Positions 31,712 to 53,675 of a DNA stretch of 64,000 bases are shown here, piece by piece. The number at the start of each line of letters is the position of its first letter. The stretch's first letter is position 1. The translations under genes were made by a program, and so were the position numbers. Source of the DNA: Hymenopellis radicata (Eukaryota; Basidiomycota; Agaricomycetes; Agaricales; Physalacriaceae); NCBI GenBank assembly GCA_015501595.1, contig JADNRX010000189.1, positions 42,147 through 106,146 on the forward strand. Reading direction: 5' to 3'. Below the pieces are notes generated by a model that was given only the letters and a program-made list of their open reading frames with translations, searched no databases and was not told the origin of the DNA.

Positions 31712-31840
31712 GATCGAGAACGCCGCTCCTGCTGGCGATCGTCTCGGAGGTAACCTCCGAGGTACCTCGGAGGCTCCGCAAATACAACCTGCAGGTGTGC
31801 TGGTGGACGGACGTATTCCGGGTGTCCGCCCGTAGACATT
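31712..31840 (+). repeat. Left terminal inverted repeat of the large element
   Basis: Matches the inverted right end in blocks: AGAAnGCnGCTnCTGCTGGCGATCG, CTCGGAG, ACCTGCAGGTGT and GTAGACAT, in order but with different spacing. This end also contains a short local palindrome of CCTCCGAGG type (31744-31773). Confidence 0.6.
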
Positions 31841-31883
31841 GGGCTGACCGAATGAGCCTGTTGGATTAGATGTCAGGCAAGCA

Positions 31884-32341
31884 TCCTACAGGTCTAAACT
31901 TTTAGAACCTGTAGGATGGTCTCAATGCTCCTGTAGTGTACTGAGTAGAATACCAACTGAGTACACCTATAGGACCGCTTGAACATACCTGTAGGATGCC
32001 TTTGCTGAGTACCTACAGGAGCGCTCGAACATACCTGTAGGATGCCTTTGCCGAGTACCTACAGGCGCGCTCGAATATACCTGTAGGATGCCTTTGCCGA
32101 GTACCTACAGGAGCGCTCGAACATACCTGTAGGATGCCTTTGCCGAGTACCTACAGGCGCGCTCGAATATACCTATAGGATGCCTTTGCCGAGTACCTAC
32201 AGGAGCGCTCGAATATACCTGTAGGATGCCTTTGCCGAGTACCTACAGGCGCGCTCGAATATACCTATAGGATGCCTTTGCCGAGTACCTACAGGAGCGC
32301 TCGAACATACCTGTAGGAGTACTAGCGAATCATCCTATAGG
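31884..32341 (+). repeat. Left subterminal palindrome array, 46-bp period
   Basis: About seven tandem 46-bp units start at 31987, 32033, 32079, 32125, 32171, 32217, 32263 and 32309 (the last diverged). Each unit holds two copies of the near-palindrome, ACCTGTAGG and ACCTACAGG, 24 and 22 bp apart. Neighbouring units alternate between GAGCGCTCGAACAT and GCGCGCTCGAATAT spacers, giving a 92-bp higher period. More scattered sites lie from 31884. The array ends about 58 bases before the transposase start. Confidence 0.9.
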
Positions 32342-32398
32342 TGCCTTCAAACTTTGATGTGACATATTACTACTGATCACAGCTTGTGTTCCCCCATC

Positions 32399-34551
32399 AT
32401 GACTATTTCCATCGATGAATTAGCTCATGCTCTTCAAGGCTACGATATTGATTTACAAAAGGCATCTCTTATGCTTTGCCTACTGAAACGCATTTGGAAT
32501 CATCTCGAGTTTGAGGGCTCAGTTCCCTTTTTACTCCCCGATAACATTATTCAATTTCTTTGCATCGCCACCAACATTGCGGAACATCAAATCATTCAAG
32601 CTCTCTGGCTTCGACTTAAAGCCTTTGTACCTCAATGGGAAGCCTCTCTGGCCTTTCAAGAAGCTGTAGATAACAGTTTTCGCCAATACGGACAGCCTTA
32701 TAGTCTCGGTACGTCGTATGTGATGTTACTTCCTTATGATTTAATTTCAAGTTTAAAAGGTGCTGAAATGCTCTATCCACCTCATCGACGTTGCCCAGAT
32801 CCTACCTGTCAGGGCTCAAAACTGGGAAATGCTGTCTATGTGGAAGCACGCTTATACACTCTACATCGTGGCGTACTTCCAGTATATTCCATTTCCCTTA
32901 ACTGCTCAAGTCTGTTTCTTTCACATTCATCCATTAAGTACTACATACTCATTGCTGATTTAGAATGCAACACACGTTATCATCCCAATCATAGTGTTAC
33001 CAATCCAAAATCACCAGCTTCTCAGCGACAGTTCTATGCTGATGTGGGGCCATACATTCACATCAACACAACTGTCTTTCTAGAGGATCAGTTATGTGAA
33101 TTTTTCGAACAAAACATATGTCATTCTCAGTACGCAGTTTCTTATATCGCTGTAACTGTTTGTTGAGAAATGATAGCTCCTCTTCCACTATTCTAGCTCG
33201 ACTATATAATCTTCGACTAGGACGTACTCACACCACATTAACCTCAACGTTGAAGGAGGAGCTGACACAAGAAATGGTTTTAGACGCCTTCTTTCTTTAT
33301 GCTCTTCTGCGACGTTGTCAACGAGATAACATTGTTCTTTGTGTTCCTCATCATGGGCAACAGGAACATCGACTTGATGATGCTCTGCATGACGCTAATC
33401 AGCGCATGGCTGGAACTGGCCAACCTCAGTATGCACATGCTTGCGATCAATGTCTTAAAGTCATTTCCGACAACAATGGAGAGCCGATTGGTTTGTCTCC
33501 TAAAATTCTCATATTTTCAGTCGCTTATTGTTTATAGGCATCATTCATGGTGGCGTTACTGACGGCGTTACCCTTGGACATACCTGCTGTCGTGTTAAAC
33601 ACTGCAAAGTTCCTCTTCGATCGGTCAAAGACTGGTACTGTCCTGAACATCTATCCCTCACCGACAAATGTCACGTCGACGGATGCATACAACCCTCAGA
33701 AGCACCATATATAATGTGCAACTCTCCCGAGCATCGAGTACTTGAGGATGAGGCTCGCCAACGGCAAATTGCCAAATCCCAACATCTTGATGAGCAGCGA
33801 CGCCTTCAGAAAGATGGTGTTCCAACTGCAAGCGGTAAAAAGAAGAAGCATAAAGGCAAGGGAAAGTCAGGCAAGAGGGATATTCATGGAATGAAGTTTA
33901 CTCGGAACTACACCCACAACGAGCAGCTATTCATTTTTTGCTGTGGCGTCATTGTCTCTCGTTGTACCTTTTTTGTTGCTGAAGGACCAGAGTCTGTTAA
34001 TGTTCGTATTTCTTCATATTATTTCTCTCTAAGGAATACTCAACTGTTTCAGGAATATCTCAAGCGAACATTTCCTCATCCTGCTCTAATTCCGACACAT
34101 CTCTTCTACGACAATGCTTGTACGCTTTGGAAGTTTCTTCGTGCTCATAATGATCCATATTGGGATGCTATTCGACTTGTTGTGGATGTTTTTCATTCAC
34201 ATGTTCATAGCGACGAGGATGATGTTTGCCAGGCCAATTGTGTTCCTACACTCTTCCCCGAATTAAAAACTGCTGATGGCAAATGGCAGTTCAACTCGTC
34301 TATCGCAGAACAGACCAATGTCTGGTTTGGTGTCTTTCAATCAATGGCACGAGAACTTTCATCAATACGGTATGCCTAACTTGCAATCTTACCTTTGCAT
34401 ATCGGCTCACGGTATATATAGCTACAACTTCTTTTTGGATGAGATGATCTCTATCCGCAATGAATGGATGGTCGAACAGCTTGCCAAAAAGCAGCAGCAC
34501 CCATGGCTTCGAGATCTCGATGCCATCATGAAAGAATACGAAGAGAAATAG
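32399..34551 (+). CDS. KDZ-type transposase with CxC5/CxC6-like cysteine clusters
   Basis: Exons join to a protein of roughly 620-650 residues. After a helical N-terminus (MTISIDELAHALQGYD) comes a CxC5-like region with RRCPDPTCQGSKL and a later cysteine in CNTRYHPN, then HACDQCLKV, then the CxC6-like cluster GHTCCRVKHCKVPL, DWYCPEHLSLTDKCHVDGC and MCNSPEHRVLED. A Lys/Gly-rich linker (KKKKHKGKGKSGK) leads to the KDZ core: CGVIVSRCTFFVAEGPESV, THLFYDNACTLWKFLRAH, VVDVFHSHVHSDEDDVCQANC, FNSSIAEQTNVWFG and YNFFLDEMISIRN-type ending. It should cut and move the element by binding the end arrays. Introns are about 50 nt and I see no break in the joined frame. Family assignment is from memory of the conserved pattern; the transposase role is known for the family. 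Confidence 0.8.
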
Positions 34552-34556: not shown

Positions 34557-35090
34557 TCAAGAGTGTACAGGAAAAGCGCGTAAATTATTCTGAAATGTAT
34601 TCCTACTTCCCTTCTTCTTATTCCAAACATATTCAAACAATGCCGCTGCAGAATAAAGGACGAAAGCTGCACGCATAACACCATCCTGAATAACTGTCAA
34701 GTTCCCATGAGTGACTAAGGCGGAGGGCAAGAGAATCATGTTTCCTGGCGGAAACTCGATGATACACCGCAAATCCCATAATATTATATGTCCGCCTCGT
34801 TTTGAATGGGAACAGTCGAGGGCGCAAGGATGGGAGGCGCTGAAGGTAGTTCCACGTCGTCGTGGACGAGACTGGGGAAGGAGAGCGCGGCAAAGTTGCT
34901 CGCCCCAGCAGCTGACACGCCCACCTCCGAATCCGACCGTGCGTTCGAAAGACGCAGAGAAGCTGTATAATAGGGAGTCAGTGTCTGCCCTCGGACATGG
35001 TGAAGGACGTACTTCACAACAGGACAGGTCGATCGGGGCTCCCAGTCCCGCCCCAGCGCCCACACTCCCGCCACGGCAGATAAACATCAC
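34557..35090 (-). pseudogene. Remnant of a KDZ-associated 2OG-Fe(II) dioxygenase
   Basis: The minus strand reads GGHIILWDLRCIIEFPPG, MILLPSALVTHGNLTV and FVLYSAAALFEYVWN, which is the C-terminal core of a double-stranded beta-helix dioxygenase found next to KDZ genes in many agaricomycetes (the later His in THGN is a likely iron ligand). The upstream part with the expected HxD is in another frame (VHDDVELPSAPP), overlapping by a few bases with no room for an intron. The 5' part has no clear continuation. It ends immediately downstream of the transposase, tail to tail. I read it as a frameshifted, decaying copy. Substrate (DNA 5-methylcytosine in TET/JBP relatives) is only an analogy. Confidence 0.5.
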
Positions 35091-35159: not shown

Positions 35160-35600
35160 TCATAGTTGTCGGCATCTCCAGTATCCCAATCGAATTGTAA
35201 GTGGCCATCTTGTGCCGAGGCGAGGAGTGGGTGATGGGCGGTGGTAGAAAATATTCTTCTAAAGAACCCGCAATTTCAGTCAGATTTCTAAAAACACAAA
35301 GGACACGCACCGTTAACGACAGCGCCATCTACGGCCATCGTCGTCCAAATGAACTCCTCATCATGAACCTCAGTGCCAAATTCAAACATCGCCAACATCC
35401 AAGTACACCAGCGTATCATCGGACATTCCAGTAGGTCGCCGTAGCGCGCAACGAGGCCGATGATGGGGTGAGGGTGATGGAGAGAGCCAGGTGGTGGTGG
35501 AAGACAGAAGCAAGAGAACGGTGATGACGTAGTTGAATCCGACTTTCAAGCTGACACTCGGATTCAACTACGTCATCACGGCGCTTGTTGCTCTCCTCCA
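35160..35600 (+). repeat. Duplicated ~430-bp block, copy A
   Basis: Similar over its length to 41270-41700: shared runs include TAAGTGGCCATCTTG-like, GTTAACGACAGCGCCATC, GTCGTCC-AATGAACTCCTC, CCAGTAGGTCGCCGTAGCGCG and AACGAGGCCGATGATGGGG. It includes hairpin A and lies directly upstream of the gene at 35673. Confidence 0.85.
35521..35579. repeat. Hairpin A, 22-bp perfect arms
   Basis: Arms 35521-35542 and 35558-35579 are exact inverted copies around a 15-base loop. The arm contains TGACGTAG, a CRE-like bZIP half site, on both strands. The same stem recurs at 41633 and 52688. Confidence 0.9.
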
Positions 35601-35672
35601 CCAACTTTGGAAAGCTGAACCTGGTCGTCTCGTCAACGCCTCCTCATCTCCTCCGACTATTAATAATTTGCC

Positions 35673-36681
35673 ATGTCCATCTCCGTCTCCGACGATGCCT
35701 CGGCGCACAGTGGTAGCCCCACTATGGACATTGACTACAACAGCGACGAGGATCCAAAGATCCTGAGTTTCTCGCCCTACCATGGCGCGCGCAAGCGGAT
35801 ACCACCGGAGGTCTTGGATGACCTCCACGTTAACCTCATTCCTCCTTCCGACACCATCCATGCAGAACGTGTACTTCGCTCTGCACCGTCCTCCTGCTAC
35901 GCCCACTACTTTACAGTCAACCCTGGCCCAGAGGTACTCTACTGTCTGGGATACATCCGCCCGCACTACCTCAATGCGCGCAAGGCTGGTCGCCATCCGG
36001 AATTCTATGCGAAGTTAGAGGAATTTTTAGCAAAGAATTTCGAGGTTCCAAAGAACCGCACTGAAGGCAAGCGGTATCTTCAGGTTCGTTTTCTCTCATT
36101 CGCGTTTCCTTGCTGAATTATCTATACATAGATGATATACTTTCGTCTGGTAACAAACCGATGTCTCTCCGCCCATGAGTCGAACATCACACCGCCTTTC
36201 TTTCTCCTTGGTTATTTTTTGAACGAAATTGCAGAGGAGATTGACTGGCGTTCCAATGATACTATATGGAGGGAACTCGCTCTGTTGAATCATCCTGATA
36301 AGGTGCGAGAAATCTTGGATCAGTCTCAAGAACAGTTGGATCTGCAGTGAGTCTCTTCGTTGCCTAACAATTGATACTCATCCTTCTTTTAGAGGTCTGG
36401 ATGGACGCCAGAGGATTCGCCCTGAACGCGAGGATAGCCAGACAGTGAATGAATGGCGTGGGGCGGCGACAACATTCCTTTTCAATTGTGAAGACTTCAG
36501 AACGGAGATAGATACAACATTTGCTGCATATAGCATGCCGATGGATCGTTCATCTCATACGGAGCCTGGGTTGAAGGTGGTGGATATTTTAGAGAAGTGG
36601 GAAGGTCTACCCACTGATAACTTTGTTTCGGTGGGCCCGTATCATGATGATATTGCAGACGATTGTGAGCTCGATCACTGA
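35673..36681 (+). CDS. Unknown protein in the large element
   Basis: Three exons join to about 280 residues. The N-terminus is acidic and Ser-rich (MSISVSDDASAHSG, DYNSDEDPK), then RIPPEVLDDLHVNLIPP, HYFTVNPGPEVLYCLGYI and LEEFLAKNFEVP. The second exon carries FLNEIAEEIDWRSND and VREILDQSQEQLDL; the last ends LKVVDILEKWEGLPTDNFVS. No domain recognised. Its position behind a copy of the hairpin block, and a short N-terminal likeness to the dioxygenase gene at 41728 (AKNFEVP against VKNVKIP), suggest a common origin with that gene, perhaps a truncated relative. Confidence 0.5.
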
Positions 36682-36960: not shown

Positions 36961-37008
36961 AACCCTAACCCAACGTCATTCGCGCGGGAATGACGTTGGG
37001 TTAGGGTT
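36961..37008. repeat. Perfect palindrome with telomere-like arms
   Basis: Arms of 21 bases (36961-36981 and 36988-37008) are exact inverted copies around GCGCGG. The outer part of each arm is AACCCTAACCC / GGGTTAGGGTT, like fungal telomere repeats, and the inner part contains ACGTCATTC. It lies between two unknown genes. Confidence 0.9.
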
Positions 37009-37050
37009 TCCACAGCGCTGATCGCTGTCATCTCTTTGACTCTTGACCAC

Positions 37051-38247
37051 GATGGCCACCGGTCCTCCTACGCCCGCCCACGACAGACGTGGAAATTCAG
37101 GACGCTGCCCGCGACCCAGAGCCAACTGCGAGCTCCCCAGCGCCAGTCGTTCCGCCTGCTGAAACGGTAGCCGCACCGACAGCTGCACCAGTCGATGTCA
37201 TTCAGCAAAATTTCGCGTCGACGATCGCTCTCATCGCAGTGGCCAAGGAATGGCAGCAGCTTGTCCAGCACGCAGAATTTGAGGAGATTCGACGCCGGCG
37301 GGTAGTGGGTGTCAGTCGGGATCGTGTTCGGGCTGGCGGATCGTTCACTCTCGTCAGCAAGGTCGACATGAGAGGATCTCGGGATCGTCGACTCGTCTTG
37401 TTGGGGTGGGTCATTTCCTCATGGACTTGACACTCATCATTTGGCAGGCCGTCAGGATGTTGGATTCGGCGTTCCTGCGGTATTGTCAGACGTCTCTCAA
37501 ACGCCGCCGCCCTGGCCAGTCGGGCGTGCTTTCTAGGCTGCGTGATGCCCTCACTCCCTCCACACGCACCCCCGCCATACGACTGCAACTGGCGGCGGAC
37601 TTGGAGCATCGAGTCATGGATTGACACCCTTGGTAGGTCGACCCATGTTCAAATCCAAATCGTTTGTTCTTTGACTTACCTTTACTTTAACAGTTCAACT
37701 TTTCTTCGCGACTTCGACGCTGCCACCACGGACTCCTTACCCTCCTGCTTGAATACGTACCGGTACGTCTTGGCCTCGCTCGTTGTTGGTGCTGACATCG
37801 CCATCTTAGCCTTGGACCCCGCCTCTGTCCATGGGCTCGTCTTCTTTAAGCTTGCGCAGACTCTTCACCCTCCTCCATCGACTACTTACAGGTAAGTCAT
37901 CCTCTTACTCGTTGTCAACAATATTGTTGACATCGTCTTAGATCGAGACATCGTCGTCGTCGGCTGGACGTCTTGGATGTTGATCTTGTCCTCTTCGCCG
38001 ACGTCTTGACCGCACGACGGGGTCGCAATGTTTGTCCGCTCTCGATTCCTTCGGACGGGGCTTTAGATAACCCTGTGAGCGCCTCGCTGTTTGTCTTTTT
38101 TGTGCTGTGAACTGATTTTCGATTCGGTTAGCAATTCGCGCACGACGGCTTTGGGAATGTAAATACTCTACGGGGTCATGGCTCTCAACTGGTTCTTCGC
38201 GGCGGAAGGGTTTTGGGCTGGCAAAACCTGTTTATTGGGTACTACTG
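37051..38247 (+). CDS. Unknown protein in the large element
   Basis: A chain of open frames with plausible 50-60 nt introns. The first part is Ala/Pro-rich (EPTASSPAPVVPPAETVAAP) followed by a helical stretch (DVIQQNFASTIALIAVAKEW). Later frames give FLRDFDAATTDSLPSCL, LDVDLVLFADVLTARRGRN and, after an intron, FAHDGFGNVNTLRGHGS ending LFIGYY at 38247. I recognise no family and the splice choices in the middle are weak. The 3' end lies only 37 bases before the hAT-like element's target duplication, so the insertion just missed its coding part. Existence as a gene is uncertain. Confidence 0.35.
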
Positions 38248-38292: not shown

Positions 38293-40561
38293 TAGGGTTT
38301 TGAGGTCAGGTTAAGCTTGACCGGTCAAGTCGCTTGACTTGACCGGACCTGACCGAAATTTTGACCGATGACTGTTGACCGGTCACATTATTTGACCGGT
38401 CACGGTCAACGGTCAAGTCGCAAACCAATATTTGGCCTGACCGTGCATAACCGGTCGTGACCGGTTATAACCGGCAAATTTTTGTTCGTGCCCTTCGAGC
38501 TTGCCCGCGCTAAATAGCATGGGCAGCATTCGTTGTGCACGAGGTTCCCCTCACTCCTCCCGACAATGCGACGTTGTAGATAACGTTGCGCAGCCGCAAG
38601 GCAGTGGGGGGAAGGGAAGGGAGACTTGCGTTAGGAAAAAGTTAGGGAAAGTTTGTGGTGGTGGTGATGTCGTTGTGGTACCGTACTCCTGTTATTAAGG
38701 TAAACACGACACGGAAAAGACATAGTAAAATCAACACGCAACCTGACGACGCTGCAAGTCCACGCGTATCTCCATCGTTGTAGTCGGCTATGTGCAGCCT
38801 CGTTCGAGGGTCGAGGGCTTACGCGTTCAGCCGCGCCGTGGCCGCTGCGTGATTTGGGCCAGCGCCGCAATCGTTTGGTCTGCAGATGCGACGTGGTGGA
38901 GGTAGCATGTCCTCATCGTCGTGATGGCGTCGTTATGGAGGGTAGCAGTGTCTTCCTCGTCGTAGATCCGGATCTTCGTGATCTAGTAGTTGGGAATCGT
39001 GCAGCGTTGGCGTCATTGTGAATTTGTTCTTGTCCTGGCGGCGGCAGGGGTAGCGTAGTCGCCGTGGCCAAGGGCGGTTGCCGTCGTCGCCATACGGTTG
39101 TTATCGGCGATGGGATGTTCGTCGTTGTCGCGGTGCTACTGTCGGCGTCGTGTTGCTGCTGTGGCTGCCGCAGTAATGATTAGTTACTGCCAATGATGGA
39201 GAAAAAAATACGCACCTCAAAGACGCCGCCTGTCAGCAGACAGGATAGCGTCAAGTTATCGAATGCTCTAGCCCATGCGGTCACCATCGTCTCGTTGTTG
39301 TTGTTGGTGCCGAGCAAGACTTTCGTGGTGATGGTAGGGTCCTCGTTTTGACAGGGTCATTGTCTTTGTTGGCGTGGGTAGCAGTGTGGGTGTCGTATCC
39401 CGGTTGTGCTGGCGGCGTCGCTGTGAAGGTGGTGGCAGAGGCGTAGTCGTCGTCGTGGAGATGTGGTCGTGGTTCTCGTAGTGGGGTAGTCGTCGTTAGT
39501 GATGCTAACAAAGGAAATACGGCAAAAGAAATTGCGCACCTGCACGACGCCGGCCGTCAGCAGACAGCGCGGTGTCGAGTCCCCAACTCAATCTACTATG
39601 TCCTCTGCCCATGTAGGGGTCTCCACCATCGTCGTCGAAGATTTGCGGCCTCGTTGGAGGCTTACGCGTCCAGCGGGCCGCCGGGCTCTTCAAGCCCGCA
39701 CATCCACGAAAAAGCCGAAGAAAAGAAATAGATCGGAACAGAACGACGCCTGGAAGACCCGCGTCCAAGGTCGGGTCGTCGGAGACCAGGCGTCGCGAGG
39801 TGGTGGTGGCTGAAGGTCAAGATCTGACCATCGATCACCAGTCGGATGATCGGACCGGACGACGGAACTCACCTCGGGATGGCTACAACGCCGCAACGAA
39901 GGCCGCGCTCAGACTCGGATGTGGCGGGATATACTCGTGTGAAGGAATACTTCAACTTTGAATTTTACTCATTTTTTGCTGAGAGCAGTATTATCGCACA
40001 ACTATAGTACAACTTACTCGATGAACCATCGATAAGTTGAAGTATCTGATCCTGGATTGAGAAGATGTTTGCAAGACATGTTAATGTAGATATAAATGTA
40101 GCTCTATACAATCTTATTGGTATCTATCTAGGTCTCCAGCAGAGTCTGATGCTGAATTTCTTGAAATCATGAGTGAGTGTACATAGCATCGCCGTGTCTT
40201 GCCCTTGAACGTTAGTATACCGTCATGAGGCTTCAACAAACCTGAAAGTCATGTCTCAATGACGGAGTGAGTATGGTGCGTGCTCTGTCAGTGTTAATCA
40301 ACTGCCAAGCTATGGGTTCAAGCCTTGCACTGGTCATTTTGTTGCCTTGGAATACGGTCTAAACCGATTATGACCGGTCTTAGCCGGGTTACGGTCGTAA
40401 CCGGTCAAAACCGCTTAACCGGCTTAACTTGACCGGTCAGGCCGCTTGACCGGTCACGGTTAACGGTCAAGCCAAAATGTCCAATTTGCCTAACCGGTCC
40501 GGTCACCGGTTAAGCCAGATTAAGGTCACTTAACCTGACTTAACCTGACCTTCGAACCCTA
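38293..40561. mobile_element. Nested non-autonomous hAT-like element
   Basis: A 2,269-bp insertion flanked by an exact 8-bp duplication TGCGCTAA (38285-38292 and 40562-40569). Its ends are inverted copies beginning TAGGGTT, with 20 of the first 23 bases identical, including AGGTCAGGTTAAG. Inside each end are at least three copies of ACCGGTCA (38320, 38378, 38395; 40400, 40432, 40449). An 8-bp duplication and TAGGG-type ends are typical of hAT transposons. No hAT transposase frame is present; the middle (38500-39900) is a diverged, CGT/GTC triplet-rich low-complexity region with local repeats of a unit near GTCAGCAGACAG (39231, 39552). It would depend on a transposase from elsewhere. Confidence 0.88.
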
Positions 40562-41700: not shown

Positions 41701-41727
41701 TGCTATCCTCCACCCACTTTGGCTACT

Positions 41728-44431
41728 ATGTCTACCGACGCCGCTCCTCAACAGCCTTTGGACGGCGAGAAGATTCACTCGCTAAACGAAAAACGTGATA
41801 CCGCTCTGCCTCGTTTCATTATCCGTGACTGGCACCCTTTGCTGCCCGAAGACCTTCGCCCATATGTGAAGAACGTATACGTTTATCGTGCGGATACTGC
41901 GAAGGAATCGATGCAGCGTTTTCGGGAGTATGTTGTGAAGAACGTCAAAATCCCTCAAGGCCCCGATGCTGAAATGGAGGGCGAAGGTGTGTGGATATCT
42001 GCAGCTTTCTAACCCAATGACTGAGTTTTTTCAGGACTTCTGGAACTCCTCCCGGGAGATCTTATATTTGCCCGCGACATCAAGGAGACTACGCCGATGC
42101 ATGATGTGCTTCAAGTCGTTGTTTCTGACCAGTACGTCCAAGTTGATGAATTCTGCCAATTCGATCTTATCCGTGATTCAGAACCTTCGCATTCCCACCC
42201 GAAGTCCTCGAGAAGCTCAAGAAATTGAAGGAAGACCTCCTTGGACCAGATGAACTTCGTAAGGACGGCCTCACACAACTTGAACGAGATGGGCGGTCCA
42301 ATCCAGTTGGAGGACAGGGGCGATGTTATTCGATGGGTTTTATGACCCAACGCACCCGTTCTCTCGTCAACCCGGCTGCAGATGGGAAATATGCCCAAGA
42401 GACAGATTGGGGTCTGAAAATGCGTGCACGCATCGTTGATGTGCGTTGATAGAGTCTTCCTTTAGACAACCACTGATTACTCATAGTTCTTTATTGGTGT
42501 GGGTCTGCGAGTGATACGCAAGTATGCCCCCGAGGTATTCGAGAATTTGAAACGTAGCGGGGAACTGCACAATCTTCCGCAGCTTGGGTCTTCGGAGAAC
42601 TATTGCTTTGCTGGTGTTCAAGTCAATATGGCGTCTGCCGTCTCTTGGGAGTCTCGTAAGTAATCTTGATTGTGCTATTGGAGTCTGCTCATCATCCTTA
42701 CAGGCGAAGGGCTTGGGAAGGAGATGCACTTTTTTGGAGGGGAGCACACAGACACAGAAGACTCAGAAGCTGGTCTAAGCGGTATTCTCGCATCGCCCTC
42801 GATTCCATCTAATTACGAACCTAGACATTTCCATTTCCTGGAGTTGGGAGCGTACATTCGATTGACCGGAAATGTGTGTGCTCTCTTTTCAGGACTGCGC
42901 CATCATGGTGGTACCCCTCCACGGGCACCCAAGGGCGAGCAAGTATCTCCATTGGCTTTACGAATGGTCGTGGTCCTGTATCCACCTTCGACCTTGCTGG
43001 CTGGTGATGCACTGTATAATCTGAGCGCCGGGGGCAAAGGTAGTCCAGTTCGCTTCGCACCGGAGTATGCAGATCCAGAGTACGTCTTCTCATGTCGTTG
43101 TAATATCTGCCTTATTGTGATTGTAGGAAAGAGTCGCATGCTGAACGCCTGTGGACTGAGGAGATGACGTTTGCAGAGGATGGACCATTCGTTATGCAGC
43201 AGGAGTCGCTGATGAAATTCATGGGCCGGGCTTACCTTCAGATGACCATCAGTGCACTGCGGCAGTTGCCATTAGATTGGGAGGTCCAAGTGGATACGTC
43301 TCAATGGCTGAAGGCGATTTCATTTTTGAAGAAGAAGGCTGAGGGCGACGATGATTCCTTGCCCAGAGTACGGTGTTCACTGGAGCCTTGGGCATTGGCA
43401 CCACCGGTGAATGGGCATACTCCAAGTGAGACGCAAAATATTGGTAGGTCCTTTGCTATCGCTCTTGACCTTTGTTCACCGTGAGATTATTCTAGATACT
43501 ACACTTCTGTCCAGACGTCTTCAGGTCTTGCGACAGTTTGAAGAGGAACGATCTCGACTGGCACGCTTCATTCCTTCTGTGGCGGCTAAGCGAGACGTAG
43601 CAGAAGATTCGAGTGTTCCTGCTTCCGACGTTCCTGCTATTGGTGGACGTCCGAAAAAGAGTTCGTCCCTAGCTGTATCATATCTATGTCTGCTAACAGT
43701 TTCTAGAAACACGCATCATGAAGCATAAGAATGTTGCACAGGGTACTCCAGGAGGACCTCGTCGCCGTCGGTATTATGGCACATCTCGTATGTCTATCCG
43801 ATTTATATTCATACGTTAAACTCATAGAGCCTCAGTACATGCACAAGGTACAGTTCGTGCAGCAAGAAACATTTCCGACCTCTGGAAACGTGTGTTTAAG
43901 CGTCAAGCGAGAGCTGGCCTGAAACGAGCGAAGTTCACTGTTACTGAGGAGGAGTATGAGGTTGAAAGCATTCGTCAACATCGATTTACGAAGAAGAAGG
44001 TTAGTTCACAATGAGATCTAGCTTAATCAGATCTCTAACCAGCAATAGGGATTGTTGCAGTACTTCATCAAATGGGAAGGATATCCGGAGAAGGACAATA
44101 CGTGGGAACCTAGATCTAATCTGTACGCTTTTCATAACTTTTCATTCCTGGCTAATTGGAATACAGTGTGAATGCAGAGCATCTGGTGGCCGACTACAAC
44201 GATAAGCATGGTTTAATGATGATTGACGAGGATAAAGTGTTGGAGTTGGACATATCAGTATGGATGTGGATGAGATTGACACGTCCGGCGTTGGGGCGTC
44301 CAACATTGGGGCGTCCGGTGGGTCGTCCGGCGTTGGGTCGTCCGGCGTTGGGTCGTCCGGCGTTGGGTCGTCCGGCGTTGGGATGTCTAGTATTGGGACT
44401 GTGGATGTTGAGATGTCGGATGATGCTATGA
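41728..44431 (+). CDS. TET/JBP-like 2OG-Fe(II) dioxygenase with chromodomain
   Basis: Exons join without a break. The N-terminal part has [18 protein letters not shown] and VKNVKIP. A middle part follows ([46 protein letters not shown]). The dioxygenase core shows the iron site HxD in [10 protein letters not shown], then [17 protein letters not shown], the second His in [12 protein letters not shown] and the 2-oxoglutarate-binding Arg in [12 protein letters not shown]. After a basic linker ([11 protein letters not shown]) comes a chromodomain: [35 protein letters not shown] and [13 protein letters not shown]. Such enzymes oxidise 5-methylcytosine or thymine in DNA; TET/JBP genes are known to ride on KDZ elements. 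The chromodomain suggests targeting to methylated histone. The 3' end is unclear: in frame it runs into an Arg/Pro/Leu repeat to 44431, while the adjacent frame (44260 on) gives a better acidic tail. Confidence 0.75.
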
Positions 44432-45640
44432 GGGATGCTGGAACGTCCTGCATTGAGATGTCAGGTGTTGGGAAGTCGGGCGTTCAGACGTTGAGTGGCA
44501 TAACTGCTGCTCTGGAGAAGGATGCTAGCATGATGGATGTTTCTGAGATGGAAGATGAGGAAGATGAGGATGGGAACTATGAGGAGCGGCAGCAGGTCGA
44601 GGATGAGTTGGAGAACGAGAGTAACAATGACGATGAGGATGCAGAAGGAGAGGAAGAGGACGATTACGATGATCAGAAAATCGATGAGGTCAACGTCATT
44701 CAAAAGAACTCAGGTCAGCTACTATTTTATTTCCGTAAACATTTCTAAAATATGTTTAGGCTTTCGATTCATCAACGAACTCACTCGCTCAGCAATTCTG
44801 GAAGTTGCTTTGGAGTTCGTTCGAGCACATGCTGGTTTGACGAATCTCCAAGCTAGTCAACAAGCAGCCTGCATATTGCAGGAGTTGGCACGCTTCCATG
44901 GGCAAATGGTTTCTAGGCCTACGGACCTCGATACCCTACAGGGGGTTAAGACTTCGTGGAAGAAGTTGAGCGATATTGAGGTGGATACCTCCATACATCA
45001 GGCGACTGTTTTTCTCAGCCGTCGGGTAATTTTGGAGACTCGTATGCGTCTTCAGATCTGGGTACAGCAATGTCTTCTTGCCAATGCCTCCAGTCCTCTC
45101 TGGCTTGTGCGTCTGTGCAGCAATATTAAACGATATCAATCCTCTTCTGCCAAGGCTACGCAATCCTACGACTCCGCCGATTATCTTCCCGACTTGAAAC
45201 CCTCACGTATATTCATTCATGCTCCTTCCGACACTCGTATTCGATATCCCACTGGCCCTAAGAGGGAGCAGCAAGCTCTTGCTATGGCTACTGAAATCAT
45301 TCAGACATGGCTCGACTTTCCTATGGACGAACACTCCCAAATGCAAAATCAACTTCTCGCTGTTTTCAGTCGTGTTATTCCTCCCAACCTGCTCCCACCT
45401 CTTCTGCTATTACCTACTGTTTGGTCCGCATTTAAGAGTCCTGTGGCCTTTGTGCGTGATCATTCCAATAGGTACACCAACAAACTTCGAAAGAAGGATT
45501 GGGCATGCTTCGAAGCTTCATTATCACTTCTGTTCACCTCCACGCCTGAGCAATCCCTCATCTGCCACGCCACAGCTTTGGAGAAACTTCACTCCGCTTG
45601 TGCTCAATTCGACGATGGGCTTCAGAGCTCCTCTACCTGA
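44260..45640 (+). CDS. Acidic protein with helical C-terminal region
   Basis: Starts [14 protein letters not shown] with a 15-bp tandem repeat coding GVGSS units, then a strongly acidic run (MEDEEDEDGNYEERQQVEDELE). An intron joins NSG to FRFINELTRSAILEVALEF, opening a helical region of about 300 residues (LQASQQAACILQELARFHGQ, DIEVDTSIHQATVFLSRR, PLWLVRLCSNIKRYQSS). It stops with TGA at 45638. No family recognised. It overlaps the 3' end of the dioxygenase frame by one base offset, so it may really be the C-terminal part of that gene. The frame reopens at once after the TGA. Confidence 0.5.
44321..44380 (+). repeat. 15-bp tandem repeat
   Basis: Four near-perfect copies of GGTCGTCCGGCGTTG in tandem, with looser copies on both sides. 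It codes GVGSS in the acidic frame, and the unit length keeps the frame. Confidence 0.9.
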
Positions 45641-45691
45641 ACCATTCCTGTGCCTTCTGTGCCTGCATTTACCGACATCTCCGCCAGTGTG

Positions 45692-46441
45692 ATGATGGAT
45701 TCCATTGATACCTTCATTGACGAACTTCTTCCACTTCTTGATGCACAATCACCTGCCTCTCCAACTCCCTTACAAAACCACGTCATGCAGAATCTTGATC
45801 ATTGCCTTCCTTTCGGAGAGCATGCTCCCTCTCGAGCTCGCTTGCATCCTGGATTAAAATCCGGCAGTGTTCATAGTGGCGATATCTTATCTGTTATTCG
45901 GAGTCTCCTAATTTTTCGAGGAATCACTTTTGATACTCGAAGAGCTAGCAACTCTGATGGCTGGTACAGTCACCGGAGTCAGTGGGAGTACTACCGTGGT
46001 CCCTATTCCGAGGACAACGAGAACGAGTTTGTCAATGCTCGAGCTTATGGGCCTACGGATGGTCGATCGACGAAGAACTTCTCAACCTTCTGGGATGCAG
46101 CTCCCGGTATTCAAGAGTTTCTGTTTGACGATAAGATGAAGGTACTTCATAATCGAGGCTTTTCAGAAACGATCAAGTTTCTGTTGGCTAGAAAGGACTT
46201 GCCAAGCTTTGGTCGACTTTCTAGTTTCCTGCTAGTGGAGGACTTGGTATACACTGGTTTGGTGCAATCTCCATCGTTGGAGGAGTTTGCAAGAGAGGTG
46301 GGTAATCTTAAGAAAGGTGCAGGGCGTGCTCTTCAACGAATGGTGCCTGGACATCCATCACTTTCCCAATCTGATATTGCACAGGCCTTTATCAGTGTGT
46401 TTGAGTGCGTTGCTTCACTTGTAGCTCTATATATCGACTAA
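45692..46441 (+). CDS. Continuation of the helical frame beyond an in-frame TGA
   Basis: The same reading frame as 44260-45640 continues after a single TGA codon for another 266 codons. It is protein-like: DISASVMMDSIDTFIDELLPLLDA, LDHCLPFGEHAPSRARLHPG, SQWEYYRGPYSEDNENEF, KFLLARKDLPSFGRLSSFLLVEDL, ending ECVASLVALYID. The first ATG after the TGA is at 45692. I see two readings: the upstream gene has gained a stop, or this is a separate small gene. I prefer the first because there is no promoter gap. Confidence 0.45.
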   Translation: MMDSIDTFIDELLPLLDAQSPASPTPLQNHVMQNLDHCLPFGEHAPSRARLHPGLKSGSVHSGDILSVIRSLLIFRGITFDTRRASNSDGWYSHRSQWEYYRGPYSEDNENEFVNARAYGPTDGRSTKNFSTFWDAAPGIQEFLFDDKMKVLHNRGFSETIKFLLARKDLPSFGRLSSFLLVEDLVYTGLVQSPSLEEFAREVGNLKKGAGRALQRMVPGHPSLSQSDIAQAFISVFECVASLVALYID

Positions 46442-47310
46442 CTCCAAAATAGATATCTTGATAATCGTTTAAGTCAGGAAACGAAACAGCTTATAGGATT
46501 CGATATGTTTTTTGTAGAACATGCCCTATGTAAACTTATTCGGACTATTAGAGTACATGGCTTGTTTTAAAACTAGACAGCTAGACAATGCATTGACTGC
46601 AGTACGGGACATATGTTGTAAGCTACGCTACTCAACAGGCCAGACCAATATTGGGTGATCTCCATGTAGACTATTTCACGGTCGTCCATACAATTACTGG
46701 GGCGTCGTCCTGAGTCCATTACTACTGGCTCACATCCGCACTCTCCATGAAGCCATTGTAAGCTCTCTATCTGGTGAGAGTGGTCGCACTTCCACCAGCT
46801 GGGCACAACTGCTGTAGGCCAAATCCTTAGATGTCTTCCTCGGGAGCGAGTTGTCCGGATCATCGCTGCAATAGTTGTTGTAGTAGTTGTTGAGGGACCA
46901 TTGCTGTGAGTAGGCATCATCCATATACTTGTCGTGATCATGTTGGTCAAGGTGCTAGTCCTCACCATGCATCTGAACGCTTGCTGTTGCTGAGCTCATG
47001 TAAGGGCATTGACGTTATCAAACCATGCCGGTCCCTATTGTGATCGATGTGCTGTTGCATATTTTCATCTGTACCTGATCTGTACGATGACTAGAGGCAT
47101 TGTCCTGATTGGGGCCATCCGCCGTGAGAGCGAGGCCGTCATCCCAGTGCCACAGTGCTCATGCGTCGAGGTCCGAGTTGCTGAAAGGTGCGTGAGAATA
47201 TTCGTGACCTATATGTGACTTACAAACTCGTGACTTTCTGTGCACAGACCATATTGCAACCTTTTACCTGACGATCATCTTCATCAACGTCAAGATAACC
47301 TCACGACATC
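46442..47310. other. Spacer with one weak minus-strand frame
   Basis: A 131-codon minus frame (46573-46968) with a Thr-rich run and HSNGP has no recognised motif. Otherwise nothing. It separates the acidic gene from the zinc-finger gene. Confidence 0.3.
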
Positions 47311-48064: not shown

Positions 48065-51000
48065 TCAGTTGCCTGAATAATGACGCTTCAAACCTTCCAA
48101 GAAAACCTTGGGAGCATAGCCCATGCCTTTACGCTTGTCTAGACTCTCTAAATCTGCTTGAAGTGCCGTATTAGCCTTAACTGCCGATACACCACCATGC
48201 TCCTCCTTTTTAATAATATCGCCACATTTGAGGAATGAGGAAATCCACTCTGGTTGACGATCGAAGAGTTGGCCCCAAACCTTCAGAGGCAGTACTTTGT
48301 CTGCAACATGATAAGCTAAGACGATTCTGAAAAGTTTAGAAACATACCAAGATAACGCGTATCATGATACGCTGTAGCAAACCAATGTGCAAGCACAACG
48401 AATGTGTCGTATGGTAATCCATTAGGATAGTTCGTTTTACTCTGCTGAAGCGAAACAAATGGAATATCGTTGCCAAATTTGCCCGTAATCATATTCGTAC
48501 CAATGGCGTATATCTGAACTGTTTTGGGACGCTGAGGAATGGTGTTCCGAGGATGCGTCTTGCTACTTTTGAGTTTTCCTGTACTCGATTCTTCTCCTGG
48601 ATCCATGTCATGTTGAACATCTCTAGTAAGAAGAAAATGTGCTGTAAATGATTCGCCACCTGGTGTACGTTCAAAGATGAATCGTTGAGCGGCTGTACTC
48701 CACCAAAGATGAGAGTTCCCAAGATTATCATCGGTAGGAAGATTGACCGTTGTGGAAATGTGGCCTGGCAATCCAGAACATTCCTTAGAACATTGTGTAC
48801 CACAGCGATGCAGAAGGGGTATCTGGATCTTGTAGAAAAGGTCATCGAGCTCTCGAAGCTTGACATCGTCTAGATGAAGTCCTATAGTACCTGAATCATA
48901 TTGAGAAATGACGTTTATATAACAGAAACAGACATACTGAGCTCCTGAATCTGAAGATCTGTACTATTCTCTATCGCCCCATAGAAGAGATGAATAACTG
49001 TTTCAACCTCTACGTGGAGCATTTTACGCTCCAATCGATCCGTTATATGTTGAGGAAGGACAATATAGTGTGTGTAGTCGTATACCGATGGAGCAACTTG
49101 GTATTGAGTTTGGCCATCGCGAAGTGAAATAATGATTCGAACTGTAAAAATATGAGAGAGATATTGATAAAAAGAGTGTATACATACTGGGAGTAGCCGA
49201 AGGATCATGATGTTGCTCAGGAGCCAGTTGATCTTGCTTCTGCTGCTCCTCCAGAGCTCGCTGATGTGCTTGGGCGTCCTTCTGCTCCTGAGCCTCTCGT
49301 GTCTTCCGCTCCAGCTCCTGCTGCTCCTCCAGAGCTCGCTGATGTGCTTGGGCGTCCTTCTGCTCCTGAGCCTCTCGTTCTTCCTCTCCAGCTCCTGCTG
49401 CTCCTCCAGAGCTTGCTGATGTGCTTGGGCGTCCTTCTGCTCCTGAGCCTCTCGTGTCTTCTGCTCCAGCTCCTGCTGCTCGTCCAGAGCTTGCTGATGT
49501 GCTTGGGCGTCCTTCTGCTCCTGAGCCTCTCGTTTCTTCTGTCCAGCTCCTGCTGCTCGTTCAGAGCTCGCTGATGTGCTTGGGCGTCCTTCTGCTCCTG
49601 AGCCTCTCGTTTCTTCCTCTCCAGCTCCAGCTGCTCGTCCAGAGCTCGCTGATGTGCTTGGGCATCCTTCTGCTCCTGAGCTTCTCGTTTCTTCCGCTCG
49701 AGCTCCTGCTCCTGCTGCTCATCAAGGCTCGCTGACGTGCTTGGGCGTCCTTCTGCTCCTGAGCCTCTCGTTTCTTCTGCTCCAGCTCCTGCTGCTCGTC
49801 AAGAGCTCGCTGACGTGCTTGGGCGTCCTGCTGCTCCTGAGCCTCTCATTTCTTCTGCTCCAACTCCTCGCTCTCTTGTTTCTGCTGCTCCTTCAGAGCT
49901 TGCTGATGCGCTTGAGCGGTCTCCTGTGGCAGTAGGACACGTGTATTTTTATTAGATGAACGTGTTTTAGTTTGTCGTTGAGAATGGTCTGGAACGTTTG
50001 GAGATGGTGGAGAACAACGCTGAGGCTAAGGAAAGGTAAATAATTGATAAGAAAATGAGATCAAGCATAGCACACCGTCCATTGGCCTTCCTTAGAAAGC
50101 TGATGCAGGAGTTGCTCCGCTGGCGACATATTAAAAAGATCCTCTGACTGAATATGATGCAGGTTGCAGTGAATAGGATGTACTAAAAGGTGTTGACGCT
50201 TGACAGCAATAGTCTGGCCTCGGCGCATAGGACTGCTACTAAGACTGACAAGCAGATCAATTTTTTCCGCAACAACGTTTTGTCGTCCAACCCATTGTGT
50301 CTAGTGCATCTCTATAATGAAGAAGTGAGATAATTGACAGTGCTTGAAAAGGAATACATACAGAGTTTTCCTGTGTTAACTGATAATACTCTGTCTCCAT
50401 AGTGGCTGCAGATGAACGTAAACCAAAAGACGTCGAAAATTGAAATTTAGACTGATCGCTCCATTTCGTCATTCAAAATTGGAAAGAATCCTATAGGTAT
50501 TATCACTGACGACTACTTAGGAATGTATATTAAGATGAACGACGGTTAAGATTCTCAAACAGACTTCTAACTTGATTCCACTTGCCATCCTCTTCACGAC
50601 CACATTCAATTGCTAGTTCCAACGTTTTCTGAAAGCCCGTGTGGTGATTCTGAAACCTCCAAGCCTGCAAATGGCGCTGAACAGTTTTCAGTACGAATGT
50701 ACTTTGAGGAAATGCTTGTTTGAAGGCAGGTTCCATAGATAAATTATCATCGGCCATATATCTCTCCATAACACGAAAGTGAGAGGCCATATCACAGGCA
50801 TACTTGAGAGGGAAAGTGACGCCACGTTTGTTAACTCTGTTAAATAGCAGTTAGTAGATTAATCAACTGTTAGGTAAACGACCTACGATGGGGGTGCAGT
50901 TGATGATGATGAGGAGGGGGTTCTGTAAGGCTTATTAGCATGAAAATATAAACTAAGATCGAACATACTCTTGCTTTATTGGCGAAGATATTTCTTCACT

Positions 51001-52443
51001 ATCACTAATATTGATAACGTCCAATGGTGTGGAAGAACGAATAGGTCTAGATAAGGATATTGATTAATTGAAGCGAGCAAGCAAAATAGATGAACACAAA
51101 CTCGACTTTGGGACGTTTTTCAGGACTAGAAGAAAACGGAGCAGTCTTTCGGCGCTTTTTGGGAGTAACAGGTTCGGCGGAAACTTCTATATCTAGTATA
51201 GCAGCAGGACAAGGAGTTCCTGATAATGAGGGATCCCCTAAAGTGATTTGGGCGCCATTGGAGAGATTTTGGAGTGGAATGTCAGATAGTGCCCAACAAC
51301 CATCATCGCCAACTTCACAGTATCGAGGAAGAGCTGTTTTCTGGATGCCAGCAAGGAGCGTCTCAGAATCGCCTGGACGAAACTGAGGTAGTGTCTTGAC
51401 TACAGTTCTAATAGTCAATGGTTTCATGTCGTTGGCCTAGGATTAACGATGAGAAATATTCAGAGAATAATCGAATAATATACCTGAACCCAACGAATAG
51501 TAATAGATGACTTGATATCTTGACTAAGCTGCTGTTTGGACTGTGACGTTGCAATAGGCGAATATGAGTTGGAACGAAAAGGAGATGAGGCATTAGGATG
51601 ATTTTGAGTATAGTATGGTCCAAGATTCTTGTATTGTGCAGGTTTCATAGGAGATTTGGACGATGAAGAAGACTTAGAGGGAGAAGGAGTCGTAGAGGGA
51701 GAAGGAGTCGTAGAGGGAGAAGGAGCCATAGATGGCAAGGAAGTCGTAGATGGCAAAGGAGTCTTGGACGGGGAAGGGGAAGGGGAAGGAGTAGGGCTGA
51801 CAGGCGGACTAGAGAAACGTGGCGAGCTGGAGCTGGAGCTGCCTATAGGAAGTTCTGACGATAAACCATGTATTGTAGACGAGGATGCTGATGCTATATT
51901 ATATATGAAAAGGCTTGCAAAGGAGGAGTAGAGCATATTCGCACCTTGTATACTTTCTTTTGGCCGCCGGTGACCAGATACAATACAAGCTTGATCAAGC
52001 CTCTCCGCGACTTTGAGGCAGCAACCTAAGCACGCAGCATATGTACAGCCCTGTCGAGGTGTATTCTTCTTGCATTCGACGCATTTGGCCTGTATAGAAT
52101 ATGAGAAACAGCGATATGCTAGGTTACGAAAAATTAATACCTTTTGGTCTTGGGATCGTGGAATCAAGGTGCCATTCGTTGCCCACCAGAAGCCATGACA
52201 TTCTGGAATGACATGTGGTGCCGAGAACGTGGAATGGTTGCGAGAGCACTGAAAATATAAATGAGCGCCTATTGAAAGAGGACGACAAACATACCTTGGC
52301 AAAATAAGCGCCTTTATTAGCTGGATTCTCCCTTTACCTTGACACAGGAATAGCTCTGTGATAACGCCCGTATTACAGTCAGGACAGACTGCTCCAGGTT
52401 CTAAGACGGGAGGCTGCCACCGTGTATCCATGTGGCGCAACAA
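48065..52443 (-). CDS. Large zinc-ribbon, Ser/Pro-linker and coiled-coil gene
   Basis: A multi-exon minus gene opening at the right array. It begins MLRHMDTRWQPPVLEP, then a cysteine-rich part (CPDCNTGV, ELFLCQGKGR, CSRNHS, ECHGFWW, CVECKKNTPRQGC, CLGCCLKV, CIVSGH), resembling zinc-ribbon modules common in basidiomycete proteins of unknown role. A Ser/Pro/Thr linker of about 90 residues follows, then exons with LPRYCEVGDDGCWALSD, PKKRRKTAPFSSSPEKR (nuclear-signal-like) and FPQSTFVLKTVQRHLQAW. Then comes a repeat-coded coiled coil (unit EAQEQKDAQAHQRALEEQ, 49222-49900), a beta-rich part (VAPSVYDYTHYIVLPQHI), SHLWWSTAAQRFIFERTPGG, and the end KGMGYAPKVFLEGLKRHYSGN at 48065. The repeat frame is broken by shifts and a TGA, so the gene may be inactive. 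Family unknown. Confidence 0.55.
49222..49900 (-). repeat. 78-bp tandem repeat (coiled-coil coding)
   Basis: About eight copies, starting (plus coordinates) near 49262, 49340, 49418, 49496, 49573, 49651, 49734 and 49812. Most are exactly 78 bp, but one is 77 and one is 83, which shifts the minus-strand coiled-coil frame. A TGA in that frame lies at 49846-49848. Confidence 0.9.
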
Positions 52444-52524
52444 TGAGCGTGCTGCACAAAATGTTTATGGTCGCAGGATCAAGCCACATATAAAAAACTA
52501 TACAGTTTAGGATCTAATCCTATA

Positions 52525-53510
52525 GGTACATTGGGAGATATGATCCTACAGGTGCTTCCTAAAATGACCTGTAGGTTCATATATATGTATGTAGACAACA
52601 AATGTATGACGTGCATATATAGGAGTGCTACAATGTTACCTGCAGGTGCATTCAGAGTGTTTGAGAGCCATCTGTGGTTAGGGTTGTAATGACGTACATG
52701 AATCTGACTACTAAGCTGAAACTCAGATTCATCTACGTCATCAGCCCGAAGAGAACCTGAGGTAACGTCTAAGAGCACCTGCAGGTAACGTCCGAGTACA
52801 CCTGCAGGTAATGTCGTAAGAGCACCTGCAGGTAACCTCTGAGTACACCTGTAGGTAAGATCTGAATACACCTACAGGTAACGTCTAAGAGCACCTGCAG
52901 GTGACGTCTGAGTACACCTGTAGGCAAGATCCCAATACACCTGCAGGTAATGTCGTAAGAGCACCTGCAGGTAACATCTGAGTGCACCTGTAGGTAAGAT
53001 CTGAATACACCTACAAGTAACGTCTAAGAGCACCTGCAGGTGACGTTTGAGTACACCTGTAGGCAAGATCTCAATACACCTGCAGGTAATGTCGTAAGAG
53101 CACCTGCAGGTAACGTCTGAGTACACCTGTAGGTAAGATCTGAATACACCTACAGGTAACATCTAAGAGCACCTGCAGGTAACATCTGAGTGCACCTGTA
53201 GGTAAAATCTGAATACACCTACAAGTAACGTCTAAGAGCACCTGCAGGTGACGTCTGAGTACACCTGTAGGCAAGATCCCAATACACCTGCAGGTAATGT
53301 CGTAAGAGCACCTGCAGGTAATGTCTGAGTACACCTGTAGGTAAGATCTGAATACACCTGCAGGTAACGTCTAAGAGCACCTGCAGGTAACGTCCGAGTA
53401 CACCTGCAGGTAACGTCTGAGTACACCTGCAGGTAACGTCTAAGAGCACCTGTAGGTAACGTCCGAATGTACCTGCAGGTGCACTAAAATGCTACCTATA
53501 GGTGATGAAC
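52525..53510 (+). repeat. Right subterminal palindrome array, ~23-bp period
   Basis: About thirty consecutive units from 52757 to 53500, each 23 or 24 bp, consisting of ACCTGCAGGT (or TGTAGG/TACAGG variants) plus a spacer such as AACGTCTAAGAGC or AAGATCTGAATAC. Scattered sites extend back to 52525. The spacers alternate in a longer-period pattern, showing growth by unequal exchange. Same core and spacing as the left array, different spacers. Confidence 0.92.
52688..52743. repeat. Hairpin C, imperfect third copy
   Basis: Arms of about 20 bases around a loop CTACTAAGCTGAAAC, with two mismatches between arms. The stem (GATGACGTAGATGAATC-type) and loop (AAGCTGA) match hairpins A and B. It lies about 250 bases upstream of the minus gene starting at 52443, inside the right array. 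Confidence 0.8.
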
Positions 53511-53518
53511 AGAAGGCT

Positions 53519-53675
53519 ATGTCTACCGGTAGATACCCCAAATGCCCCGAAAGCAGCAGCCGGCGCTGGAGCAGCTACCTCCGCCCACAGTCGGCGCAGC
53601 CGGCGTCGAAGACACCTGCAGGTAGGCTCCGAGAGGCGATCGGAGGCGATCGCCAGCAGAAGCTGCTTTCTGGGT
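53519..53675 (-). repeat. Right terminal inverted repeat of the large element
   Basis: Read on the minus strand it repeats the left end: AGAAAGCAGCTTCTGCTGG, CGATCG, CTCTCGGAGCCT, ACCTGCAGGTGT, then GTAGACAT (53519-53526 inverted), with an extra CG-rich stretch between the last two. Confidence 0.6.

Follow-up and report, generated by a model that had tools for sequence, protein, structure and literature searches.

Organisation of a large DNA transposon family in Hymenopellis radicata and a candidate DNA-modification gene carried by it

Ends, copies and subterminal arrays

The window, a stretch of 64,000 nucleotides from the genome of the mushroom Hymenopellis radicata (contig JADNRX010000189.1; denoted G000:C506:42147-106146), contains a 21,957-bp element with terminal inverted repeats, arrays of a palindromic site near both ends, a transposase gene and a cargo that includes a large fused gene with a predicted DNA-modifying product. 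We regard this element with good confidence as a copy of a large family of cut-and-paste DNA transposons of this species. Searches of the species' own genome covered the 75.5-Mb assembly of 1405 contigs (C numbers below), and genes were modelled with a home-made splice-aware gene finder, each copy separately and with lesions unmended. The main features, in window positions, are the following.

31,716–53,672, no strand: whole element, 21,957 bp, with ends set by eight other copies that lie in perfect 8-bp duplications
31,716–31,741, plus strand: left terminal inverted repeat (GAGAAC... end)
53,647–53,672, minus strand: right terminal inverted repeat (CAGAAAG... end)
31,788–32,341, no strand: left array, 20 exact CCT[AG][CT]AGG sites, spacing mostly 22/24 bp
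52,519–53,622, no strand: right array, 35 exact CCT[AG][CT]AGG sites, spacing mostly 23 bp
32,399–34,551, plus strand: transposase gene (A), 4 predicted exons, 668 amino acids; CxC5, CxC6 and a sub-threshold KDZ match
41,728–44,250, plus strand: gene B, N-terminal part, a TET/JBP-like dioxygenase domain followed by a chromodomain
44,250–46,567, plus strand: gene B, C-terminal part, an SGVG/acidic stretch, a helical region and an HMUDK_hel/aGPT-Pplase1-like domain; last exon (to about 46,567) placed by eye

The terminal 26-bp repeats match at 22 of 26 positions, a level reached by none of 20,000 random pairs of 26-mers taken from the window (best, 16 matches). A preliminary description of this DNA had reported diverged inverted repeats at both ends, and it placed the ends, at 31,712 and 53,675, within 4 bases of the positions defined by the copies. 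With one mismatch allowed, the genome has 25 sites that match the terminal core CTGCTGGCGATCGYCTC, as compared with 6 for the reversed control pattern. These sites are distributed over 14 contigs, ten of which carry a facing pair (C191, C224, C446, C506, which is the window, C507, C541, C563, C626, C629 and C826), and each of the ten paired elements has one GAGAACGCCGCTC end and one CAGAAAG end. Eight of these ten single-contig elements are flanked by a perfect 8-bp target duplication, the 8-mer on both sides being GTATATCT in C191, ATTCCGCT in C224, CCGAGTTC in C446, CCGCGCTT in C507, AGATCTTC in C541, ACACCTGG in C626, GGTCAGGT in C629 and CAACATTC in C826. Terminal inverted repeats together with duplications of fixed length at several sites identify a DDE cut-and-paste DNA transposon. 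Contigs C546 and C852 show a single end each within the DNA examined. In C841 a left-type end directly follows CATGGTAG and in C812 a right-type end directly precedes CATGGTAG; since they share this 8-mer and each runs into its contig end, C841 and C812 are probably two portions of one copy split by the assembly.

The eight copies with perfect duplications span 3.3–27.3 kb and share the same two ends. One of them, in C191, is a full-size relative of 27,288 bp which differs from the window element by 0.6% mismatches over the aligned interior; C841/C812 is a second full-size relative (1.8% mismatches), and C176 holds parts of one more copy. The other seven duplicated copies are short (3.3–5.5 kb) and retain both ends and both arrays; in blastn comparison with the window element, their transposase and cargo genes were represented by short pieces at most. 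The proposal of a single mobile element, made in the preliminary description together with the advice to search the same genome for full copies, is thus upheld by eight other same-ended copies, by the short ones that keep their ends and arrays, and by the full-size relatives that the search yielded.

Two of the paired elements lack a target duplication and in this respect speak against the transposon interpretation: the 8-mers flanking the window copy agree at three of eight positions and those flanking C563 at two of eight. We consider it probable that the window copy is a decaying one and lacks the duplication because its two ends result from events subsequent to insertion, either a rearrangement or the deletion of adjoining DNA. 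Its left flank matches only itself in the genome, whereas its right flank is repeated at seven other places (89–98%), six of which match from the first base of the flank, the query beginning at the element edge. The copy is also partly broken internally: the second dioxygenase gene (A2) is mostly deleted, and the model of the large gene B is interrupted twice, by a frameshift at about 44.25 kb and by a stop codon in frame at about 45.64 kb. Neither the missing duplication nor the loss of integrity had been recognised in the preliminary description. However, an assembly error at one edge would give the same picture.

As for the surroundings of these two copies, the right flank of the window element (53,673–54,072) is part of a gene family that has been cut by the element, with further matches in C549 and C1277 (89–98%). 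In C563 (290,300–304,800), a left end is accompanied by two right ends that lie 6.7 kb apart and have the same flank, which represents a tandem duplication of an element end.

The palindromic-site arrays proposed earlier for both ends stand out clearly. Of the 62 exact CCT[AG][CT]AGG sites in the window, the left end holds 20 and the right end 35, with three inside the element and four outside it. When the two end segments were simulated 1000 times with a first-order Markov model, they contained on average 0.10 and 0.15 sites and at most 2 and 3. In the left array the spacing alternates between 22 and 24 bp, forming a 46-bp unit. In the eight duplicated copies the first 1.2 kb from the left end contain 13–32 sites and the last 1.3 kb before the right end 14–19. 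Arrays are also present in two diverged elements, in C813 and C818, which are described below. The C813 arrays comprise 29 and 25 sites. In C818 three exact sites lie near the ends, and both ends show a 22-bp period that exceeds all 100 shuffles, with 16 and 22 degenerate CCTNNAGG sites (at most one mismatch; shuffle maxima 8 and 11). From these site and period counts, the array, its period and the approximate palindrome are common to three element families.

Transposase, cargo and related elements

The predicted transposase contains CxC5 (E 1.4e-24) and CxC6 (E 3.7e-21) domains, zinc-chelating cysteine clusters that are described in Pfam as KDZ-associated. Of 54 homologs found, the majority of the named ones are from Mycena, and the window transposase is closest to an annotated protein of H. 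radicata, with which it shares 91% identity. The residues D (in TDG), D (in YDN) and E (in AEQ) are invariant in all 18 aligned transposases (18 of the 54 homologs); their motifs and order suggest that they form the acidic triad. Two results weigh against placing the enzyme among the KDZ transposases: it scores 14.8–15.5 bits against a KDZ Pfam cut-off of 26.6, over profile positions 119–171 only, and hhalign comparison with KDZ segments of the same genome gave 0.3–2.8%. Thus, the KDZ-type transposase named in the preliminary description is clear as regards its CxC5 and CxC6 domains and stays below the cut-off for KDZ itself.

It is very likely that this DDE-type CxC5–CxC6 transposase recognises the ends, which are retained in short copies that have lost the genes, excises the element and makes an 8-bp staggered cut on inserting it. 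The transposase may bind the subterminal arrays, and these, with their palindromes repeated at intervals of about 22–24 bp, are likely, at a lower level of confidence, to be docking sites for the transposase or for a partner zinc protein.

The remaining genes and the largest insertion are as follows.

34,563–34,806, minus strand: A2 remnant, C-terminal part of the second TET/JBP-like dioxygenase, convergent with the transposase gene
35,673–36,680, plus strand: small gene with no assigned function, extent uncertain
38,293–40,561, no strand: nested 2,269-bp insertion with TAGGGTT ends and the 8-bp duplication TGCGCTAA, absent from C191
47,668–48,054, plus strand: RING-like zinc-finger gene (C), main exon
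48,065–50,362, minus strand: coiled-coil repeat protein gene (D), internal repeats at about 49,236–49,939
50,530–52,431, minus strand: zinc-ribbon protein gene (E), outermost on the right, faces inward; exon joints in the last part uncertain

As described earlier, the outermost genes face inward, the leftmost reading rightward and the rightmost leftward. The zinc-finger and zinc-ribbon genes of that description are also present; gene C is RING-like by eye only (best Pfam E 0.21), and the protein of gene E has no Pfam match. A2 is recognisable in C191, C841, C813 and C818 and has an HLD...H motif; the protein from C818 matches Tet_JBP at E 0.098. Of this gene the window keeps just the end, and it lacks 2,067 bp adjoining the remnant that are present in C191 (1,818 bp in C841). 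The possibility that this segment beside the transposase gene is an insertion in C191 was ruled out by comparison with C818 and C813, from which it appeared that gene sequence had been lost from the window. In the alignment, parts of A2 from C191, C841 and C813 are interrupted by an in-frame stop. The first exon of the small gene (143 amino acids) gave no tblastn match in C818 or C813.

A diverged relative of the element occupies 26,511 bp in C818 (133,097–159,607) and is bounded by TGAGCAGG on both sides. A tblastn search with the window genes located in it the transposase, the dioxygenase and chromodomain, the helical region, the C-terminal domain, the RING and the zinc ribbon, with order and orientation conserved; gene D and the second, inverted dioxygenase are also in place. 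The chromatin/DNA-modification cargo proposed in the preliminary description thus recurs in the same gene order in an element whose alignable transposase and dioxygenase DNA is 66–69% identical to that of the window. Two points weigh against C818: its ends match at 15 of 26 positions, a level that random pairs also reach (up to 16 of 26 in 20,000), and TGAGCAGG occurs five times on the plus strand of the 40 kb examined around it. The case for C818 therefore rests on the duplication, the arrays and the genes taken together. A copy of the C818 element in C476 is 99% identical to it in the other parts examined, and encloses at 100,164–104,495 what we take from its motifs to be a Copia-like retrotransposon.

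The C813 element is smaller (9,972–20,070; 10,099 bp), with ends matching at 19 of 26 positions, and encodes the transposase, the second dioxygenase, RING, D and E. It is not flanked by a target duplication, which counts against it as a transposon copy, and tblastn found in it no match to the large gene B. In a 13-row transposase tree, which includes 10 of the 54 homologs and an approximate C818 model, C818 and C813 group together to the exclusion of the window (99/97). On this branching, one loss of gene B in C813 is a simpler explanation than two gains at the same place.

Nonsynonymous change between the window and C818 is lower than synonymous change in all parts compared, by a wide margin in the first three of them, namely (pN/pS, the proportions of nonsynonymous and synonymous differences) the transposase (0.336/0.796), dioxygenase and chromodomain (0.269/0.821), C-terminal domain (0.335/0.810), RING (0.454/0.764), helical region (0.445/0.787) and E (0.451/0.736); synonymous sites are saturated, so that only the direction of these values is safe. 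Recent copies differ by few changes: 17 nonsynonymous and 9 synonymous in the transposase between the window and C191 (pN 0.011, pS 0.020) and, between the window and C841/C812, 15 and 36 in the dioxygenase and chromodomain (0.011, 0.081) and 8 and 2 in the C-terminal domain (0.014, 0.012).

Complete TET-bearing transposons of the Kyakuja, Dileera and Zisupton groups have been described with their termini and target duplications (Kojima 2025, PMC12730594, December 2025), so that the class of TET-bearing KDZ transposons is already known, and the remark in the preliminary description that such whole elements are rarely laid out is out of date. Among the matches listed from the open-licence PubMed Central (PMC) literature this was the only paper on TET-bearing fungal transposons. 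These transposons resemble the present one in having a TET/JBP-like gene beside a KDZ-type transposase in Agaricomycetes, and Zisupton and a Dileera family make 8-bp duplications, as found here. The Kyakuja families of that paper have 7-bp duplications and CA..TG ends without inverted repeats, in contrast to the 8 bp, the GAGAAC../CAGAAAG.. ends and the 26-bp repeats of the H. radicata element, which does not fall into that group. Zisupton of fish and other eukaryotes, as presented there, also shares terminal inverted repeats; on comparison of the descriptions, the CxC5–CxC6 transposase and the multi-gene cargo set the present element apart from it. Neither chromodomain nor subterminal appears as a word in the main text of that paper (PMC12730594).

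The large fused gene and its possible role

In the window copy the two parts of gene B are separated by the frameshift. C191 and C841 read through both window lesion sites, and the alternative that the dioxygenase–chromodomain and C-terminal parts are separate genes was rejected, because both copies keep one frame across the first joint. As modelled, however, each of the three near-full copies contains at least one lesion in gene B (an insertion and a frameshift in C191, a shift in the second exon in C841), which counts against the explanation offered here.

The chromodomain is evident (Pfam E 4.3e-14) and matches CDYL and HP1 structures, with a best E of 2.5e-10. A search with the window dioxygenase protein, in which only the candidates with most shared words were scored, found two relatives, and a search with a three-row alignment found five, four of them new: P0057–P0060, of 1341–1477 amino acids, from Marasmius crinis-equi, M. 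oreades, M. tenuissimus and Schizophyllum commune. In the Pfam scan a chromodomain was above the cut-off in P0055, P0058 and P0059, below it in P0060, and not found in P0057. The HxD motif is present in six of seven dioxygenase members (P0056 differs) and the second H in all seven; the HxD...H metal triad and the following R have the order expected of TET/JBP enzymes, and in hhalign comparison with three phage TET proteins the HxD, the glycine-rich strand, the second H and the R are in register. Several results weigh against this assignment: the hhalign match itself is weak (6.7%, E 0.0054), Tet_JBP was matched in three of seven domain pieces with a best E of only 0.0008, it was found at E ≤ 1 in none of the five full-length proteins, and a genome search with Tet_JBP gave three sub-threshold places, none of them at the window. 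We suggest that the domain is a distant TET/JBP relative and a probable DNA-oxidising enzyme. Of the TET/JBP-like dioxygenases, one with a chromodomain, that were named in the preliminary description, the chromodomain is thus clear, and both dioxygenase assignments are distant.

Diverged relatives of the dioxygenase–chromodomain gene also occur in C504, C576 and C1267, contigs without a match to the C813 transposase protein; they are either stand-alone genes or located on other transposons.

The C-terminal domain of gene B is, by profile comparison, related to the phage thymine-hypermodification family HMUDK_hel/aGPT-Pplase1, a relationship reported here for the first time. Its alignment matched a six-sequence phage HMUDK_hel alignment at 96.2% in hhalign (E 2e-9, 219 of 265 columns), while the control comparisons, the dioxygenase against phage HMUDK_hel and the C-terminal domain against phage TET, gave 0.1% and 0.2%. 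Pfam HMUDK_hel is matched in four of five members (best E 2e-6), and PHROG 2396 in three of four homologs of the domain (4.5e-5, 5.4e-5 and 0.027); the aGPT-Pplase1 of phage Pam3 corresponds to Pfam HMUDK_hel at E 1.9e-42. ADDT, another phage hypermodification family, gave 50.5% and E 1.6e-4 in hhalign and a Pfam match in one of five members (E 0.021). Over 261 aligned positions the window and C818 domains are 53% identical, and the structure model of the domain has a mean pLDDT of 55. Against this relationship stand the lack of a Pfam match for the window row, the score of the best full-length homolog (23.7 bits against the HMUDK_hel cut-off of 25) and a genome search with HMUDK_hel, which gave seven matches on five contigs, none of them in the window family. 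Five of these seven matches have E 1e-76 to 1e-77, and one has 4e-65 with a weak piece beside it. They are located in C1295, C990, C165, C1259 and C850, where strong HMUDK_hel genes represent a multi-copy form of this phage hypermodification family in the mushroom.

In bacteriophages the related domains belong to separate small proteins, in contrast to the single protein predicted here for a eukaryotic transposon, in which a chromodomain lies between the TET-like and HMUDK_hel-like domains. Rhodococcus phage Tonitrus encodes Tet_JBP and aGPT-Pplase2 (Pfam ADDT) close together with a P-loop kinase as a near neighbour (PMC11955845), while no P-loop kinase was recognised among the scanned pieces of the element; phage SN1 (SN1/M6-like) is reported to have aGPT-Pplase1 and 2 with a pyrimidine hydroxymethylase (PMC9476957). 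In the open-licence PMC literature no description of a TET-like, chromodomain and HMUDK_hel fusion was found among the matches listed. Iyer and colleagues (2013, 2014) reportedly predicted phage-type base modification systems in basidiomycetes and described a link between TET/JBP and KDZ.

Chromodomains usually read methylated H3K9 or H3K27, as in HP1, CDY and Polycomb. The chromodomain of gene B is similar to those of CDY and HP1 proteins and is predicted to bind histones, with the difference that it is fused to a DNA-oxygenase-like domain in a transposon, and silenced DNA would be the target of an oxygenase joined to it. Since diverged elements have preserved the cargo, it probably serves the element. 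To judge from its domains, the fused protein may mark or unmark DNA and thereby evade silencing. It is plausible, with about an even prospect, that the chromodomain brings it to silenced chromatin, that bases are altered there and that copies escape silencing.

For the presence of TET/JBP genes on the transposons of many mushrooms, the explanation usually proposed is the erasure of 5-methylcytosine. Such a function is proposed for TET-bearing fungal transposons in Kojima's paper (PMC12730594). For gene B, a role as an eraser only, in which the dioxygenase oxidises 5-methylcytosine, methylation is lost and the C-terminal domain serves as reader or scaffold and catalyses nothing, is a serious possibility that falls somewhat short of an even chance. 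It accords with the metal-binding motif, with HxD in six of seven members and the second H in all seven; the PE type, as given in that source, has HxE. However, residues Gly331 and Asp337 of CcTET, located 5 and 11 residues past the first metal His, shared by the AG type and associated there with the chemistry of N6-methyladenine (6mA) and 5-methylcytosine (5mC), are replaced by D and S, at the same gap-free spacing, in all seven proteins here, and the domain fused to the dioxygenase belongs with a hypermodification family.

Alternatively, the fused protein would produce a hypermodified base at chromatin: by analogy with the steps proposed for the separate phage proteins, the dioxygenase would make a hydroxymethyl pyrimidine and the aGPT-Pplase1-like domain would act next; we consider this unlikely as it stands, if well worth retaining. 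It is favoured by the hhalign relationship of the C-terminal domain and by the proximity of Tet_JBP, ADDT and kinase genes in Tonitrus. The absence of a recognised kinase speaks against it, as does the lack, in the sources, of a firmly assigned reaction for the HMUDK_hel/aGPT-Pplase1 family; the modified base is a prediction. The absence of the CcTET residues at their spacing, together with the family of the C-terminal domain, nevertheless gives hypermodification a real chance, and it is raised as a possible role of TET/JBP enzymes generally in PMC12730594. A fuller scheme, in which the transposon would have its own epigenetic mark for self-marking or anti-silencing, the chromodomain finds silenced chromatin, the dioxygenase oxidises a pyrimidine and the aGPT-Pplase-type domain makes a further modified base, rather than simple demethylation, appears rather doubtful as a whole. 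The fusion of an oxygenase-like domain to a chromatin reader and a phage-hypermodification domain would predict an unusual base at or near the element copies, for which the natural comparison is between full-size duplicated copies, short minimal-end copies and C813, which lacks the fused gene.

That the genes and arrays came together by chance in an old chromosomal region is a negligible alternative to the transposon: this genome abounds in KDZ-type genes (166 reported matches), but it is refuted by the copies on other contigs, which share ends, arrays and 8-bp duplications, and by C818, which keeps the gene order.

Nested insertions and internal repeats

Five insertions of 1.05–1.24 kb are present in C191 and absent from the window, and the single one of 2,269 bp is present in the window and absent from C191. 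These nested insertions (38,293–40,561 in the window and the five of C191) have TAG.. ends and duplications of about 8 bp, two of those in C191 being 78% alike; by their ends they are presumably hAT-like.

At 36,961–37,010, two telomere-like repeats in inverted orientation (AACCCTAACCC.../...GGGTTAGGGTT) stand at the beginning of a repeat that extends over about 36,988–38,048, parts of which are also found, inverted, in the C224, C507 and C852 copies. Another repeat is present in two copies (35,163–35,610 and 41,270–41,722) that are 77% alike and have a palindromic TGATGACGTAG end; a piece of it recurs at 52,686–52,743, adjoining the right array.

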